DNA of 32,288 bases from a virus: positions 1 through 32,288 of the IMG/VR virus record IMGVR_UViG_3300048589_001628, one strand, 5' to 3'. The notes beneath the pieces are model-generated. The model made no database searches, was not told the DNA's origin, and saw only the letters and a list, made by a program, of their open reading frames with translations. Shown in pieces: positions 22,273-28,105 of this stretch (within the stretch, counting starts at the first letter, position 1; every line of letters starts with the position of its first letter). The translations under genes were made by a program, and so were the position numbers.

Positions 22273-22563
22273 ATGCCCGACCACCTTCACGACGACGACG
22301 ACGAAGCCCTGGCCTCTGCCCTGGCAGACGCCTGGGTGCAGCGCGCCGAGTCGGATCCCCGGCTCCGCCGCGAGGCCCTGCGTGCCGCCGGGCTGCTGCC
22401 CCAGCCGCAGACCCTCCGGGATCTCGCCAGCCAGTGTGGCATCTCCCCTGGCGCCACCCATCACATCTGCCGCCAGTTCCGCGCCCGCCTCGCTGCCGCC
22501 ATCCTCCAGGATCCCGCCTGCCCGCCCCGCCTCGCCCGCCTCGCCGCCAAACTCCTGCCCTGA
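22273..22563 (+). CDS. Small HTH protein
   Basis: This 96-residue acidic-start protein (MPDHLHDDDDEALASAL) has a helix-turn-helix of the sigma/RNA polymerase-like or homeodomain-like kind at about residues 47-72: TLRDLASQCGISPGATHHIC, followed by a basic RQFRARLAAAI. It is likely a DNA-binding early regulator. No wing is seen. The ATG follows CCAACCACCCC with no Shine-Dalgarno sequence. It precedes the MarR-like gene by about 30 bases. No specific family is recognised. Confidence 0.6.
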   Translation: MPDHLHDDDDEALASALADAWVQRAESDPRLRREALRAAGLLPQPQTLRDLASQCGISPGATHHICRQFRARLAAAILQDPACPPRLARLAAKLLP

Positions 22564-22935: not shown

Positions 22936-23115
22936 ATGAAAGCTCTCGAACCTCTCATCCTCATCGCCGGCGCCGTGCTCATCGCCGCCCTCTCCGCAGC
23001 CATCACCGCCTGGCATCACCGCCGCATCTATCGCAGCCAGTATAACCGCGGCTGGAACGCCGGCCGGGACTTCGCCATCCGCCAGGCGCACGACGTCCAC
23101 GCCCGCCGCCGCTAA
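22936..23115 (+). CDS. Small single-pass membrane protein
   Basis: This 59-residue protein has one membrane helix (about 5-26, EPLILIAGAVLIAALSAAITAW) and a His/Arg-rich tail (HHRRIYRSQYNRGWNAGRDF). The positive tail suggests it stays in the cytoplasm. No family is recognised. It follows the MarR-like gene by 26 bases and starts in ACCACACCC-ATG, the same context as other early genes. Roles in membrane targeting, exclusion or signalling are open. Confidence 0.55.
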   Translation: MKALEPLILIAGAVLIAALSAAITAWHHRRIYRSQYNRGWNAGRDFAIRQAHDVHARRR

Positions 23116-23131
23116 CCCACAAACCCCTTCG

Positions 23132-23198
23132 GGGCGGATGGCCGGTGTTCCGCAAGGCCCGGCTCGGTCTGATAAAGCCGCCACTAAGCATCCGCCCC
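23132..23198 (+). ncRNA. Candidate structured RNA (three-way junction) in early leader
   Basis: GGGGCGGATG (23132-23141) pairs perfectly with CATCCGCCCC (23189-23198), giving a 10-base closing helix. Inside are two further possible helices: GGCC (23141-23144) with a later GGCC (about 23157-23160), and CGGCT (about 23161-23165) with AGCCG (about 23177-23181). The unpaired joining bases CCACTAAG precede the closing strand. A CCCC-TTC-GGGG hairpin at the 5' end could compete with the closing helix, as in a switch. It sits in the leader of the next gene. No known class is recognised. Confidence 0.5.
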
Positions 23199-23206
23199 GT
23201 CCCCTT

Positions 23207-23236: not shown

Positions 23237-23476
23237 ATGCTCTACCTCATCGATATCGTCTGGATCCGCCGCTCCTCAGAGCCGGACCGCCCAGACAGCG
23301 GCACCACCACCTATGCCGAGTTCGCCCGCACCCTCACCGGCGCCAAGCGCAAGGCCGCCGCAAAATTCCGCCGCCACTACGGCATGCACCTCATCCTCCT
23401 CAACGCCCGCGAACAACCAGACCCCGCCGGCCTCTACCAGGGGAGCGCGGGCGTCTCGCCCGCTTCTTCCCACTGA
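23237..23476 (+). CDS. Small early protein with repeat-derived C-terminus
   Basis: This 79-residue protein starts MLYLIDIVWIRRSSEPDR, with an N-terminal beta strand, a helix AEFARTLTGAKRKAAAKFRR and a second strand MHLILLNARE. That compact alpha/beta part (about 1-62) is protein-like. The last residues (QGSAGVSPASSH) are encoded by the fourth REP-like palindrome, which also supplies the region of the stop. It appears the original 3' end was replaced by the repeat. The gene follows the candidate RNA and a CTCAAC array. No family is recognised. Confidence 0.5.
   Translation: MLYLIDIVWIRRSSEPDRPDSGTTTYAEFARTLTGAKRKAAAKFRRHYGMHLILLNAREQPDPAGLYQGSAGVSPASSH
23441..23472 (+). repeat. REP-like palindrome, copy 4 (3' end of a CDS)
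   Basis: GCGGGCG (23447-23453), TCT, CGCCCGC (23457-23463), preceded by GGGAGC and followed by TTCTTCCC. It encodes the last residues of the 79-aa protein. Confidence 0.75.
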
Positions 23477-23615: not shown

Positions 23616-24722
23616 ATGTCCACCCTCGCCAAAGCCCTCGCCCTCCCATCCATCGAAGACGAAATCGCCGCCATCTGCGCCACAGACAGCCTGCTGCGTT
23701 CCACCACCCACATCAAGAAGCTGCTCAAGAATGAGTACGCCCGCAGCCCGGAACACCTCCGCGAGATCTTCGAGAGCGCCCTCGCCCGCGAGGTCCGCGC
23801 CAAGCCCCAGCGCCGCGCCGTCATCCAGGCCCTCAAGAACGCCAAAGCCAAACTCCCCAACCCGCCCGCCAAAGTCGTGTCCAAAGCCGGATTTTCCAAA
23901 ATCCTCGCCGAGTCCGTCAACCGCTCTTCCTCTCAACTCTCAACCCTCAACCCTCAACCTCTTCCCGATCCCGCCTGGGACAATGCCCGCCTCTACTTCC
24001 GCGCCGTCAAGACCACCGGCCGCCAGTTCATCGTCGCCCAGATCTGCCTCGGCTGGGAACTCCACAATCGGAAAACCGCCCTCGGATTCACCCATGGGAA
24101 CAACCAACATTCGAAGGATGCCCAACTTGGGCATCCTCGGAAGACCTGGCAGGAATGGCTCCACTCCGAGATTGATCCCGACCTCACTCGGCAGACCGCG
24201 GACCGCCTGATCATGGTCTATCAGGGCTTCTGTGAGAAGTGCCCCAAGCGGCTCCGCGTCACCTTTCAGGGCGGCAGCCGCCGCAGCCTCATCACCGCCC
24301 TTTCCAAGCCGCCCGCCACCCTCGCCGCCAAGGACCGGCAGATCATCGAGGCCGCCATCGCCAAAGCCAGCGATGGCGAAACCCAGCGCTCATTGTTAGA
24401 GGAGCTCAGCCTCGTCAAAGCCCACAAGCCCCTCACCGGCGGAGACACCTCCGCCCACCGCAAGGACAAGCCGTCCGATGCCGAGCTCATGGGCCAGCTC
24501 GCCTTCAAGTTCTTCCTGCCCATTGCAGAGGGCTTGCACAGCCTGCGCACCAGCCCGGACAGCGCCGCCTTCCTCCACACCATCCCCATCACCTCCAGCG
24601 AGGCGGATGAAATCTCCCTCACCACCCTCGAAAACGATCTGGAAGCCGCACTGCACGACGTGCGCGCCGCCAAAAAAGCCCGCCTCAAACCCGCCGCCGG
24701 AAAAGTCATCCCATCACTGTAG
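23616..24722 (+). CDS. DUF3102-like early protein with repeat insertions
   Basis: This 368-residue protein has two parts. Residues 1-105 are Ala/Lys-rich helices. Residues about 120-220 contain FIVAQICLGWELHNRKTALGF and KTWQEWLHSEIDPDLTRQTADRLIMVYQ, a pattern I associate with DUF3102/Stl-type phage proteins: a helix, a Lys-rich strand, then W-x-x-W-L and R-x-A. Two repeats lie in frame: a CTCAAC-type array (about residues 105-115, SSSQLSTLNPQP) and a palindrome at about 165-176 (SKDAQLGHPRK). The C-terminal about 120 residues are charged helices. Its stop codon TAG is the start of a third palindrome. Function is unknown; it lies two genes before the transposase. Confidence 0.6.
   Translation: MSTLAKALALPSIEDEIAAICATDSLLRSTTHIKKLLKNEYARSPEHLREIFESALAREVRAKPQRRAVIQALKNAKAKLPNPPAKVVSKAGFSKILAESVNRSSSQLSTLNPQPLPDPAWDNARLYFRAVKTTGRQFIVAQICLGWELHNRKTALGFTHGNNQHSKDAQLGHPRKTWQEWLHSEIDPDLTRQTADRLIMVYQGFCEKCPKRLRVTFQGGSRRSLITALSKPPATLAAKDRQIIEAAIAKASDGETQRSLLEELSLVKAHKPLTGGDTSAHRKDKPSDAELMGQLAFKFFLPIAEGLHSLRTSPDSAAFLHTIPITSSEADEISLTTLENDLEAALHDVRAAKKARLKPAAGKVIPSL
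23930..23959. repeat. Heptamer repeat array inside a coding sequence
   Basis: Four to five CTCAAC-type units within the 368-aa gene, read in frame as SQLSTLNPQP. Confidence 0.7.
24110..24142. repeat. Palindrome inside a coding sequence
   Basis: AGGATGCCC-AACTT-GGGCATCCT is a perfect inverted repeat; with the flanks the arms reach 14 bases with two mismatches. It is in frame within the 368-aa gene and could be a third REP-like type. Confidence 0.6.
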
Positions 24723-24975: not shown

Positions 24976-27132
24976 ATGTCCACCCTCGCCACCCAATCCC
25001 TGTCCGTGATCCGTCTCATCGACGATTATCCATCCTATTGCTCCCTGCCGGACCGCGTGCAGTCGGATGTCATGTCCAAGCTGCGCTGGGTGCATGCCCT
25101 GCTCACCGCCGCCCATGGCGAGAAACAACTCATCGTCAAGCAGGCCGCGCGGGAGCTCGGCGCATCGCCTGGCGCCGTCCATCGCTATCTCAGATGGTTC
25201 AAGGATCACGGCTGGAAGGGCCTCATCGATGAGCGCCACGCCGGCGTGGGAGCCAAGGGCCTGCCCGAGAAATTCAAATCCCACGTCGCCGGGATCTTCG
25301 ACAATCTCCAGCGCGATGACGACGGCCGTGAAGCCCACCGCCAGCTCATCGACCGCTGGCAATGTTGGCGCGAGACCGGCAGCAGCGACTTCGAAATCCC
25401 CGGCTACGATCACGCGCCCGACCCGGACCCCGCCACCGGCGAGCCGCGCGGATGGAGTTATGACAACCTGCTCAAACTCCGGCCCAAGAAGGCCGCTCGC
25501 GCCGCCGCCAAGATCGGCCCCAAAGCCGCCTCCGTCTTCCTCCCGCCCGTTCTAACAACACGCATCGGCAGCGCCTATCTTTCCCGCGTCCTCTTCGATG
25601 ACCAGGATCTCGACAACCTGCTCGCCGATGGCTTCCTCGCCATCTCCGGCATCACCAGCGCCCAGAAGCCCGTATCCTTCAACTCCCTCGACTTCTACAC
25701 CGCCGCCCATCTCGACCAGCACCTTCGCGCCCAATACAAAGACCAGGACTCCGGCCGTGACAAAACACTCTCAGGCCAGGAGTTTGCATGGTTCACCATC
25801 CATCATCTTCAAACACGCGGCTACCGCACCGATGCTCTCGGCAGCGAACTGATCCAGGAGCACGGCACCGCCAAAACCTGGCAGAACAAAGACCTGGTCT
25901 CGCTCTCCGGGCACCACTCATTCGAGGACGCCATCCACGCCCTCACCGGCGGCAAGGTTTTCATCAACCGCTCCGGCAAGTTCGACTCGCCGCTCTTCGC
26001 GGACATGTGCTTCCGGCCAAGCGCCACCGGCAACTTCAAGTTCAAGACCTGGCTGGAAAGTGCCTTCCGTCTGCTGCGCACCTACATGCAGTCACTGCCC
26101 GGCCCCACCGGCTCCATGGAGCGCATCAACGGCCCTGAGGAAAGATATGGCATCCGACTCGTCGAGAAAAACCTCCTCTCCGCCATCTATCAGGCCGTCG
26201 ATCCCGGCACTCAGGAATTCCTCCGCGCCAACCTCCGCCACGAACTGCTCGACCTCGCCACCTTCCACCAGCTCGTGCTTGCCGTCTATCGCGCCGTCAA
26301 CGCCCGCACCCGCCACAGCCTCGAAGGCTGGCACCAATGCGGATTCACCATCCCGCTCTGGCGTCCATCCGAGAAGTCCGAGACCTGGTTCACCCAGGAC
26401 GAACTCGCCGCCATCGAAGATCCCGAGGAAAAGCGCTTCCTGCTCAAGCGCATCAACTCAAACCGCGAACTCCTCACCAAGGAAGAGCGCCTCTCGCCCG
26501 CCATGGCCATGCAGATCGAGGCCGCCCGCGATGCCAACTGCATCGCCAGGCTCAAGGATGAATTCGTCGGCCTGCTGCTACCCACCGCGTGGTCGCTGGA
26601 GAAAACCATCGGCTCAAATCACTGCTTCACGATGCCAAATCCGCTCTGGCCGGACACTCAGGAAACCTACGTCGCATCATGGGATCACAAGGACATGCAG
26701 GTCACTCTCGATGCCGGCAAAAAAGTCCTCGTCTATCACAATCCGTTTTCCGACGGCCGCGCCCATGTCCATGACATGAACGGCAGCTACATCACCACGC
26801 TGCACCCCACCGTCCGCGCCGAGCCATTCCGCCAGGACAAGACCCTCATCCAGCTCGCCGCCCGCGCCAAGGTGAAGTCCGGCCACGAAGCGCACCTCAA
26901 GGCCCGCCTCGCGGACATCGCCGCCGGCCGAGTCGCCGACCGCGAGCACAACAAGGTCATCCTCGACCTCACCAAGGAAGATCGCCGACGCTCTGCAAAC
27001 GCCGTGCAGGCCGCCCGCACGGCCGATGCGCAGCGCACCTACGCCACCCACGGCCAGGTCGCCGATGATGCCCTCTCCCACATCGCCCCACCCCCAGACA
27101 CCACCACCACCCCTGACGACCTCGACTTCTGA
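24976..27132 (+). CDS. A: Transposase A (MuA-like DDE recombinase)
   Basis: This 718-residue protein is the recombinase that cuts the phage ends and joins them to target DNA. In order: an N-terminal winged HTH (about 45-90, QAARELGASPGAVHRYLRWF) for end binding; the RNase H-like catalytic core (about 195-375); a beta-barrel domain (about 610-680, with FSDGRAHVHDMNGSYITT); and a basic, Ala/Arg-rich C-terminus (about 660-700) of the kind that contacts the B ATPase. First acidic residue D208 is in VLFDDQD. At the second position, where DNG or DHGT is usual, the sequence reads QEHGTA (E295). Third E361 is in WLESAF. Hence D-E-E rather than D-D-E. The gene starts in ACCACCGCC-ATG. The ORF is intact. 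Confidence 0.85.
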   Translation: MSTLATQSLSVIRLIDDYPSYCSLPDRVQSDVMSKLRWVHALLTAAHGEKQLIVKQAARELGASPGAVHRYLRWFKDHGWKGLIDERHAGVGAKGLPEKFKSHVAGIFDNLQRDDDGREAHRQLIDRWQCWRETGSSDFEIPGYDHAPDPDPATGEPRGWSYDNLLKLRPKKAARAAAKIGPKAASVFLPPVLTTRIGSAYLSRVLFDDQDLDNLLADGFLAISGITSAQKPVSFNSLDFYTAAHLDQHLRAQYKDQDSGRDKTLSGQEFAWFTIHHLQTRGYRTDALGSELIQEHGTAKTWQNKDLVSLSGHHSFEDAIHALTGGKVFINRSGKFDSPLFADMCFRPSATGNFKFKTWLESAFRLLRTYMQSLPGPTGSMERINGPEERYGIRLVEKNLLSAIYQAVDPGTQEFLRANLRHELLDLATFHQLVLAVYRAVNARTRHSLEGWHQCGFTIPLWRPSEKSETWFTQDELAAIEDPEEKRFLLKRINSNRELLTKEERLSPAMAMQIEAARDANCIARLKDEFVGLLLPTAWSLEKTIGSNHCFTMPNPLWPDTQETYVASWDHKDMQVTLDAGKKVLVYHNPFSDGRAHVHDMNGSYITTLHPTVRAEPFRQDKTLIQLAARAKVKSGHEAHLKARLADIAAGRVADREHNKVILDLTKEDRRRSANAVQAARTADAQRTYATHGQVADDALSHIAPPPDTTTTPDDLDF

Positions 27133-27160
27133 TCCACACCCCATCCAACCATCCACACCC

Positions 27161-28105
27161 ATGAAGAAATACCCCACCGATCCCGCACTCATCGCCGCCC
27201 TCGTCTCACTCCGCAATGACCAGGGCCTCACCAACAAACGTCTCGCCGCACTGCTCGGCATCCAAGGCTGCACCGAGACCTTTCTCAGCAAATACATCAA
27301 CGACAACCTCGACCGCGAAATCCACGAGTTCGACCGCATCGCCCTCGACATCGTCCGCTCCATCCGCGAGCGCATGTCCTTCGCCTCATCCATCTATCAG
27401 ACCAGCGTCGTCCGCAAAATGGGCAACGTCCTCCACCTCATCCGCAAGACCGGAGACATCGCCGCACTCACCTCCCCGGCCGGCAATGGCAAAACCTCCG
27501 CCATCCGCCACTTCGCCGCCGAAAATCCATCCTCCATCTGCATCAACCTCAACGCCACCACGCGGGATGCCGCCAAGGTCGAAGGCCTCATCTTCCGCAC
27601 CACTGATCACCGCGAGTGGAAAGGCCAGACCAGCCGCTATGATTTCCTCGTCAACCGCTTCAAAGGCACCGGCCGCCTCCTCATCGTGGACAACGCCCAG
27701 CGCCTCACCATGTCCGGCCGCCAGCTCATCTTCGACCTCGCCGATGACGCCGAGTTCCCCGTCGCCCTCATCGGCAATCCCGAAATGATCGATGCCATCC
27801 GCGCCAACGACCAACAGTTCTCCCGCGTCGGCATCCACGGCACCTACGCGCTCGAATCCGCCGAACTCCCGGCCGCCGCATTGTATGTTGCCCGCCAGTT
27901 CTCCGATGATCCCACCGCCGAGGCCATCTCCGATCTCGTCGCCTTCATCTCCGCCCGCGATGGCCGCCTCCGCGCAGTCCGCAAGACCGTAATCCTCGCC
28001 CAACAACTCCGGGCAGAGTCCAACAAACTCCGCGACGATCCCCGCGCCGCCATCCGCGCCGCCCACTCCCGCCTCATCCGCGACTACGAACTCCCCGTTG
28101 ACTGA
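27161..28105 (+). CDS. B: Target-selection ATPase B (MuB-like AAA protein)
   Basis: This 314-residue AAA+ ATPase is the partner of the transposase: it coats target DNA, gives target immunity and activates strand transfer. Residues 1-60 hold a Cro-like HTH with LTNKRLAALLGIQGCTETFLSKY. Walker A is SPAGNGKT (105-112). Walker B is LLIVDNAQ (173-180), where the usual DE is DN (N178). Sensor 1 is LIGNPE (N206), and an Arg is at 222 (FSRVG). Loss of the catalytic Glu would slow ATP hydrolysis unless another acid serves. The start context is TCCACACCC-ATG, 28 bases after the A stop, as expected for an A-B operon. The length matches MuB. Confidence 0.85.
   Translation: MKKYPTDPALIAALVSLRNDQGLTNKRLAALLGIQGCTETFLSKYINDNLDREIHEFDRIALDIVRSIRERMSFASSIYQTSVVRKMGNVLHLIRKTGDIAALTSPAGNGKTSAIRHFAAENPSSICINLNATTRDAAKVEGLIFRTTDHREWKGQTSRYDFLVNRFKGTGRLLIVDNAQRLTMSGRQLIFDLADDAEFPVALIGNPEMIDAIRANDQQFSRVGIHGTYALESAELPAAALYVARQFSDDPTAEAISDLVAFISARDGRLRAVRKTVILAQQLRAESNKLRDDPRAAIRAAHSRLIRDYELPVD

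Follow-up and report, generated by a model that had tools for sequence, protein, structure and literature searches.

In phage T7, the early genes are separated by RNase III sites, which are irregular hairpins. The put RNA of HK022, which belongs to the early transcript of a temperate phage, is a structured RNA of about 70 nt that works independently of proteins and is present twice per phage; it consists of two stem-loops, of which stem I contains a short triplex (PMC9378689). Its two copies, putL and putR, mediate antitermination through the zinc-binding domain of the RNA polymerase beta' subunit. The L17 downstream element (Weinberg 2010), which is not phage-borne, follows the gene for ribosomal protein L17 in Lactobacillales and Listeria (PMC2864571).

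In this report, we analyzed a window of 32,288 nt, namely positions 1 to 32,288 of an IMG/VR virus record (IMGVR_UViG_3300048589_001628), in which the late genes lie on the - strand and the early operon on the + strand. Our main finding is that an RNA element of this early operon represents a new phage RNA family, previously uncatalogued by Rfam and by the open-licence literature. With Rfam 15 at the gathering threshold, no family was recovered for the window or for eight loci carrying other copies, and permissive Rfam scans gave weak chance matches only, far under threshold; the first-pass annotation, made on the sequence of the window, had likewise been unable to assign the structure to a known class. 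Similarly to the T7 RNase III sites, the element is structured, repeated between early genes and restricted to the sense strand, but it differs from them by its conserved junction, its GNRA loop and its joining strand. It resembles HK022 put RNA in being a structured RNA of about 70 nt located on an early transcript, in being present in two copies in some phages, and in that no dedicated protein factor was found; unlike put, it folds into a three-way junction that carries a GNRA loop, and the two-stem-loop arrangement is seen in none of its copies. The sequence relation of the element to put RNA was compared through Rfam only. As for the L17 downstream element, both are covarying RNAs placed directly 3' of a coding region, with a strand set by GNRA loops (PMC2864571), but our element resides in phages and has no Rfam match.

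The element lies within a 121-nt gap separating a 59-aa gene from a 79-aa gene, and the early strand that carries it is rich in C and poor in G. The features of the locus are the following.

22936..23115, + strand: gene preceding the element, for a single-span membrane protein of 59 aa; its stop codon lies 14 nt 5' of the element
23130..23199, + strand: entire element, an intergenic three-way-junction RNA of the early operon; covariance model (CM) match of 87.9 bits, covariation across 11 copies
23130..23140, + strand: 5' strand of helix P1, CGGGGCGGATG; 4 of its 11 pairs with 23189-23199 show double changes across copies
23141..23163, + strand: helix P2, GCCGG...CCGGC, with an inner 2-bp CC/GG mini-stem; double changes in 7 of 7 modelled pairs
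23152..23155, + strand: GCAA (GNRA) tetraloop capping P2; GNAA in 11 of 11 copies
23165..23180, + strand: helix P3, CGG-U-CU-GATAA-AG-CCG; pairing kept by CGG/CCG, CAG/CTG, AGG/CCT and other variants
23181..23188, + strand: joining strand J3/1, CCACTAAG, 8 nt; CUAAG-like core in most close copies
23189..23199, + strand: 3' strand of P1, CATCCGCCCCG, pairing with 23130-23140
23237..23476, + strand: gene following the element, for a small basic early protein of 79 aa, the end of which runs through a GC-rich repeat
24976-27132, + strand: MuA-like transposase, early operon
27152-28105, + strand: MuB-like ATPase, early operon

Two other sequence features were noted in the early operon. The final residues of the 79-aa gene are encoded by a GC-rich palindrome (GGAGCGCGGGCGTCTCGCCCGC, window 23440-23470), an exact 22-mer of which is present in more than 100 genome contigs from many phyla, with some inverted pairs. 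Further downstream, an almost perfect inverted repeat of 16 nt, with a single nucleotide at its centre (TTCGAAGGATGCCCAA/TTGGGCATCCTCGGAA, 24110-24142), lies in the frame of a 368-aa early gene. Regarding the transposition genes, the MuB-like protein of the window is 81% identical to its counterpart in genome G735 (L176), as against only 35% identity between the two MuA-like proteins; judged from these sequences, the region 24976-28105 appears mosaic with respect to L176.

The first-pass annotation had proposed a three-way junction closed by a perfect 10-base helix, and this fold was recovered in all copies: P1 comprises 11 bp, that is, the 10 perfect base pairs and a C-G pair at its foot, and the 11 copies, folded singly, all share P1 and P2 and have a third helix at the same place, P3 being shifted in the minimum-energy form of L211 and L218. 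The linkers of the junction are of 0 nt (J1/2), 1 nt (J2/3) and 8 nt (J3/1); as there is no gap between P1 and P2, these two helices are probably stacked. The CUAAG-like core of J3/1 is absent from the divergent copies. Two details of the initial description were revised, since the GATAAAG segment, read as a joining segment, is actually the loop and 3' side of P3, and the competing CCCC-TTC-GGGG hairpin on the 5' side exists only in the window and in L211 (2 of 11 copies). The minimum free energy of the element is -36.9 kcal/mol (z = -2.7 compared to dinucleotide shuffles). Perfect 10-bp stems at such spacing occur five times in the window by 10-mer count, compared with 1.6 on average and 5 at most in shuffled sequences, and a coding stretch of 74 nt near 22320 has a fold more stable than that of the element. 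Folding energy by itself is weak evidence in a GC-rich window, and it is the comparison across copies that decides.

Scans with exact 18-mers and 21-mers in IMG/VR and GTDB gave no match, nor did single-sequence searches of viral contigs with the transposase, MuB-like and terminase proteins, and blastn against annotated phages and plasmids revealed no homologue. Relatives were first reached through the GC-rich repeat, which led to Verrucomicrobiota handles (L011, from genome G001, is labelled Opitutaceae). The closest relatives of the transposase fall within one Verrucomicrobiota family, with identities of 68% (G637), 48% (G655) and 33-39% for the others. Among 260 genomes of that family, blastn of the element detected one clear homologue, on contig 47 of G701 (E 1.7e-14, 86% identity), in the early region of another Mu-like phage. 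The transposase of this phage belongs to the L214 group and is only about 26% identical to that of the window, which makes the element much more conserved than the proteins encoded around it. A two-sequence covariance model then identified a second, diverged copy 4.7 kb along the same G701 phage (40 bits, E 2e-6), and degenerate patterns applied to IMG/VR gave L204, L206, L209, L211, L214 and L218, the first copy of L209 coming from the pattern and the second from the CM. Finally, a ten-sequence model run on 388 genomes of the phylum yielded convincing matches in one genome only, G085 (49 bits), with an E value of 7e-6 per single genome and of about 0.003 across the 388 genomes searched; this divergent copy is a probable rather than certain member of the family.

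Altogether, 11 distinct copies in nine phages or prophages were collected, that is, the window and ten copies in eight others, a number that under-samples a family of which more copies surely exist. The other carriers are mostly Mu-like; one has a recombinase/exonuclease region and one is a divergent prophage. Several candidates were discarded: weak CM matches in L200-L203 (21-30 bits), L225 and L233 (the G146 repeats described below) correspond to chance or to a different long-hairpin repeat, the DNA pattern is present and the structure absent in L205, L207, L208, L210, L212, L213, L215-L217, L219 and L220, and L234-L237 are chance matches to the 3'-end pattern only.

Compensatory changes were found in every helix, P1, P2 and P3, which answers the covariation test called for at the outset. 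In the CM alignment, 14 of 23 pairs show double changes (four in P1, seven in P2 and three in P3), for a mean of 4.7 in shuffled controls; none of 500 shuffles scored as high, a figure that should not be read as a probability, since the control disregards the relatedness of the copies. The signal was lost upon sliding the 3' partners. As the CM alignment is fitted to the structure, the test was repeated on a structure-blind MAFFT alignment, from which RNAalifold proposed the same three-way junction unaided, with double changes in 14 of 21 pairs. Since the patterns used to retrieve most copies included P1, its near-invariance is partly a matter of ascertainment; still, P1 double changes are present in the model-found copies G701b, L209b and G085. 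P2 lay outside the first search pattern save for its outermost bases, and every P2 pair covaries. A GNRA loop makes sense only if read from the + strand; the loop thus designates this strand as the RNA strand, and in all 11 copies the strand bearing the GNAA loop is the sense strand of the flanking genes. We conclude that the element is very probably a true RNA family, with a conserved and strand-specific structure, residing in phages between genes.

All 11 copies are intergenic and in sense direction, and most are found towards the start of the early operon; each phage carries one or two of them. In nine of them, the copy starts 6-15 nt past the preceding stop codon, and the distance to the next start, where assignable, varies from 8 to 89 nt (the distances of L209a and L214 were read by hand). 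The upstream gene encodes a single-span membrane protein of 26-72 aa for 7 of the 11 copies, several of these genes being homologous, so that they do not count as independent observations. In L209 (reverse strand, 255-525), a 26-codon hydrophobic reading frame, MRPLLFDITLIATPWALIWILSKHLP, lies between the two RNA copies. In G085, the upstream gene is lipoprotein-like; two near-identical prophage segments about 35 kb apart (L231, L232) each hold an identical RNA copy, flanked by the lipoprotein-like gene on one side and a 140-aa gene on the other, in the late-gene region of the prophage.

The downstream genes are unrelated, and encode a small basic protein, an acyl carrier protein, a recombinase-like protein or unknowns. 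In the window, the element stands 5' of the 79-aa gene of the early operon, in agreement with its initial placement before a small early gene. Homologues of this 79-aa protein (the g23237 family) exist in G701, L206 and L211, so that, with the window, the protein is encoded next to or near the element in four phages. No member of the family was detected in the sequence available around the L204, L209, L214, L218 and G085 copies; these five carriers rule out an obligate co-occurrence, and among the phage genes tested none co-occurs with all copies. The same gene order also exists free of the element: in L171 and L174 the membrane gene is almost directly joined to the next gene, and in L223 the junction between the membrane and acyl carrier genes is occupied by other sequence. 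The element is therefore an optional module. The acyl carrier protein-like gene (L214 4208-4465, L223 8346-8612) is found in the early operon of Mu-like phages, just before the transposase region.

Two functions were considered and set aside. A metabolite riboswitch does not fit the unrelated downstream genes and an unpaired core that varies in divergent copies, and a leader peptide starting at the internal ATG does not fit length differences between copies that are not multiples of three and a frame that is closed in L204, L218 and G701b.

We infer that the element is probably transcribed and acts in cis. Our preferred reading, a tentative one, is that of a cis-acting RNA that would keep early transcription going by contacting host RNA polymerase. 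In Mu-like and some other Verrucomicrobiota phages, the element would belong to the polycistronic early mRNA, would fold as soon as the ribosome has left the gene before it, and would then contact a general host machine, the first guess being elongating RNA polymerase; this contact would keep the long, C-rich early operon transcribed, as in the case of HK022 put RNA. A generic target, rather than a gene-specific sensor, is suggested by the unrelated downstream genes, a host factor is favoured because no tested phage gene accompanies all copies, and these two observations, along with the occurrence of the element in different phage types, suggest that the target is a general host machine. RNA polymerase as the target is the weakest part of the reading, and is a doubtful one. 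The C-rich, G-poor early strand would be expected to be Rho-prone, which would give antitermination a purpose. Against antitermination, no terminator was predicted downstream of the element on the + strand, the relatives L171, L174 and L223 show that the element is dispensable for such an operon, the G085 copy lies among late genes, and put RNA has two stem-loops instead of a three-way junction. The narrower proposal of a protein-independent, put-like antiterminator in unrelated Verrucomicrobiota phages, with a separately evolved, GNRA-capped three-way-junction fold, is unlikely.

Other explanations have to be weighed against transcription-sustaining activity. An intercistronic structure for processing or stabilization, in which the P1/P2 stack would be cut by RNase III or would block exonucleases and thereby result in unequal cistron levels, has a precedent in the early-gene sites of T7; it accounts for the close spacing past the upstream stop codon with a variable distance to the next start, for a long GC-rich P1 running directly into P2, and for unrelated downstream genes. 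A plain long hairpin would suffice for this, and the junction, the invariant GNRA loop and the joining strand of close copies exceed the need, so that we regard it as somewhat improbable. Conservation of the loops and junction would rather suit recognition by an RNA-binding protein, of phage or host origin, which would repress or activate translation of the adjacent gene, as would the position of copies 8-89 nt 5' of a start codon and the small basic g23237 protein encoded nearby in four phages, but the absence of that family from the sequence available around five carriers, the variable distance to the next start and the unrelated downstream genes make this reading unlikely as well. A trans-acting small regulatory RNA, excised from the early transcript or made apart from it, would be in line with a compact, stable and self-contained fold and with two copies in some phages; given that neither a promoter-like nor a terminator-like site borders the element on the + strand, and that loop sequences vary with no obvious conserved seed, we find it quite improbable.

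Least probable of all, to the point of being very remote, is a REP-like or MITE-like palindromic repeat, either mobile or originating from the host, and devoid of RNA function. Its appeal comes from the presence or absence of the element at the same gene junction among related phages, from its location before different genes, and from a Verrucomicrobiota REP-like palindrome of G146, whose outer arms GGGGCGGATG/CATCCGCCCC are nearly identical to P1 of the phage RNA. This host repeat is present in about ten scattered copies (L233 3800-8960), with outer arms TGGGGCGGATG.../...CATCCGCCCCAC that match P1 identically, but it is a single long hairpin with neither P2/P3 junction nor GNRA loop. The random host scatter that the first-pass annotation named as a refutation was not seen: the best-matching genome, G701, holds only two copies, both on the phage contig, and no copy was detected in 17 other genomes under permissive filters or in 15 congeners, a set to which the window's own host does not belong. 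Many scattered host copies, the mark of REP-like or MITE-like repeats, were thus found in none of the tested genomes. Moreover, the copies show no consistent target duplication, and covariation of P2 and P3 with a kept GNRA loop is unexpected for a decaying mobile repeat.

This study uncovers, from one raw window, a covariation-supported RNA family in a bacterial phylum for which few phage studies exist. Compact, moving between phage types, gained or lost at one gene junction and preceding unrelated genes, the element offers a tractable test case for RNA-only control of long early phage transcripts. Should it act on RNA polymerase, put-like control would extend far beyond the lambdoid phages and would be known in two architectures.
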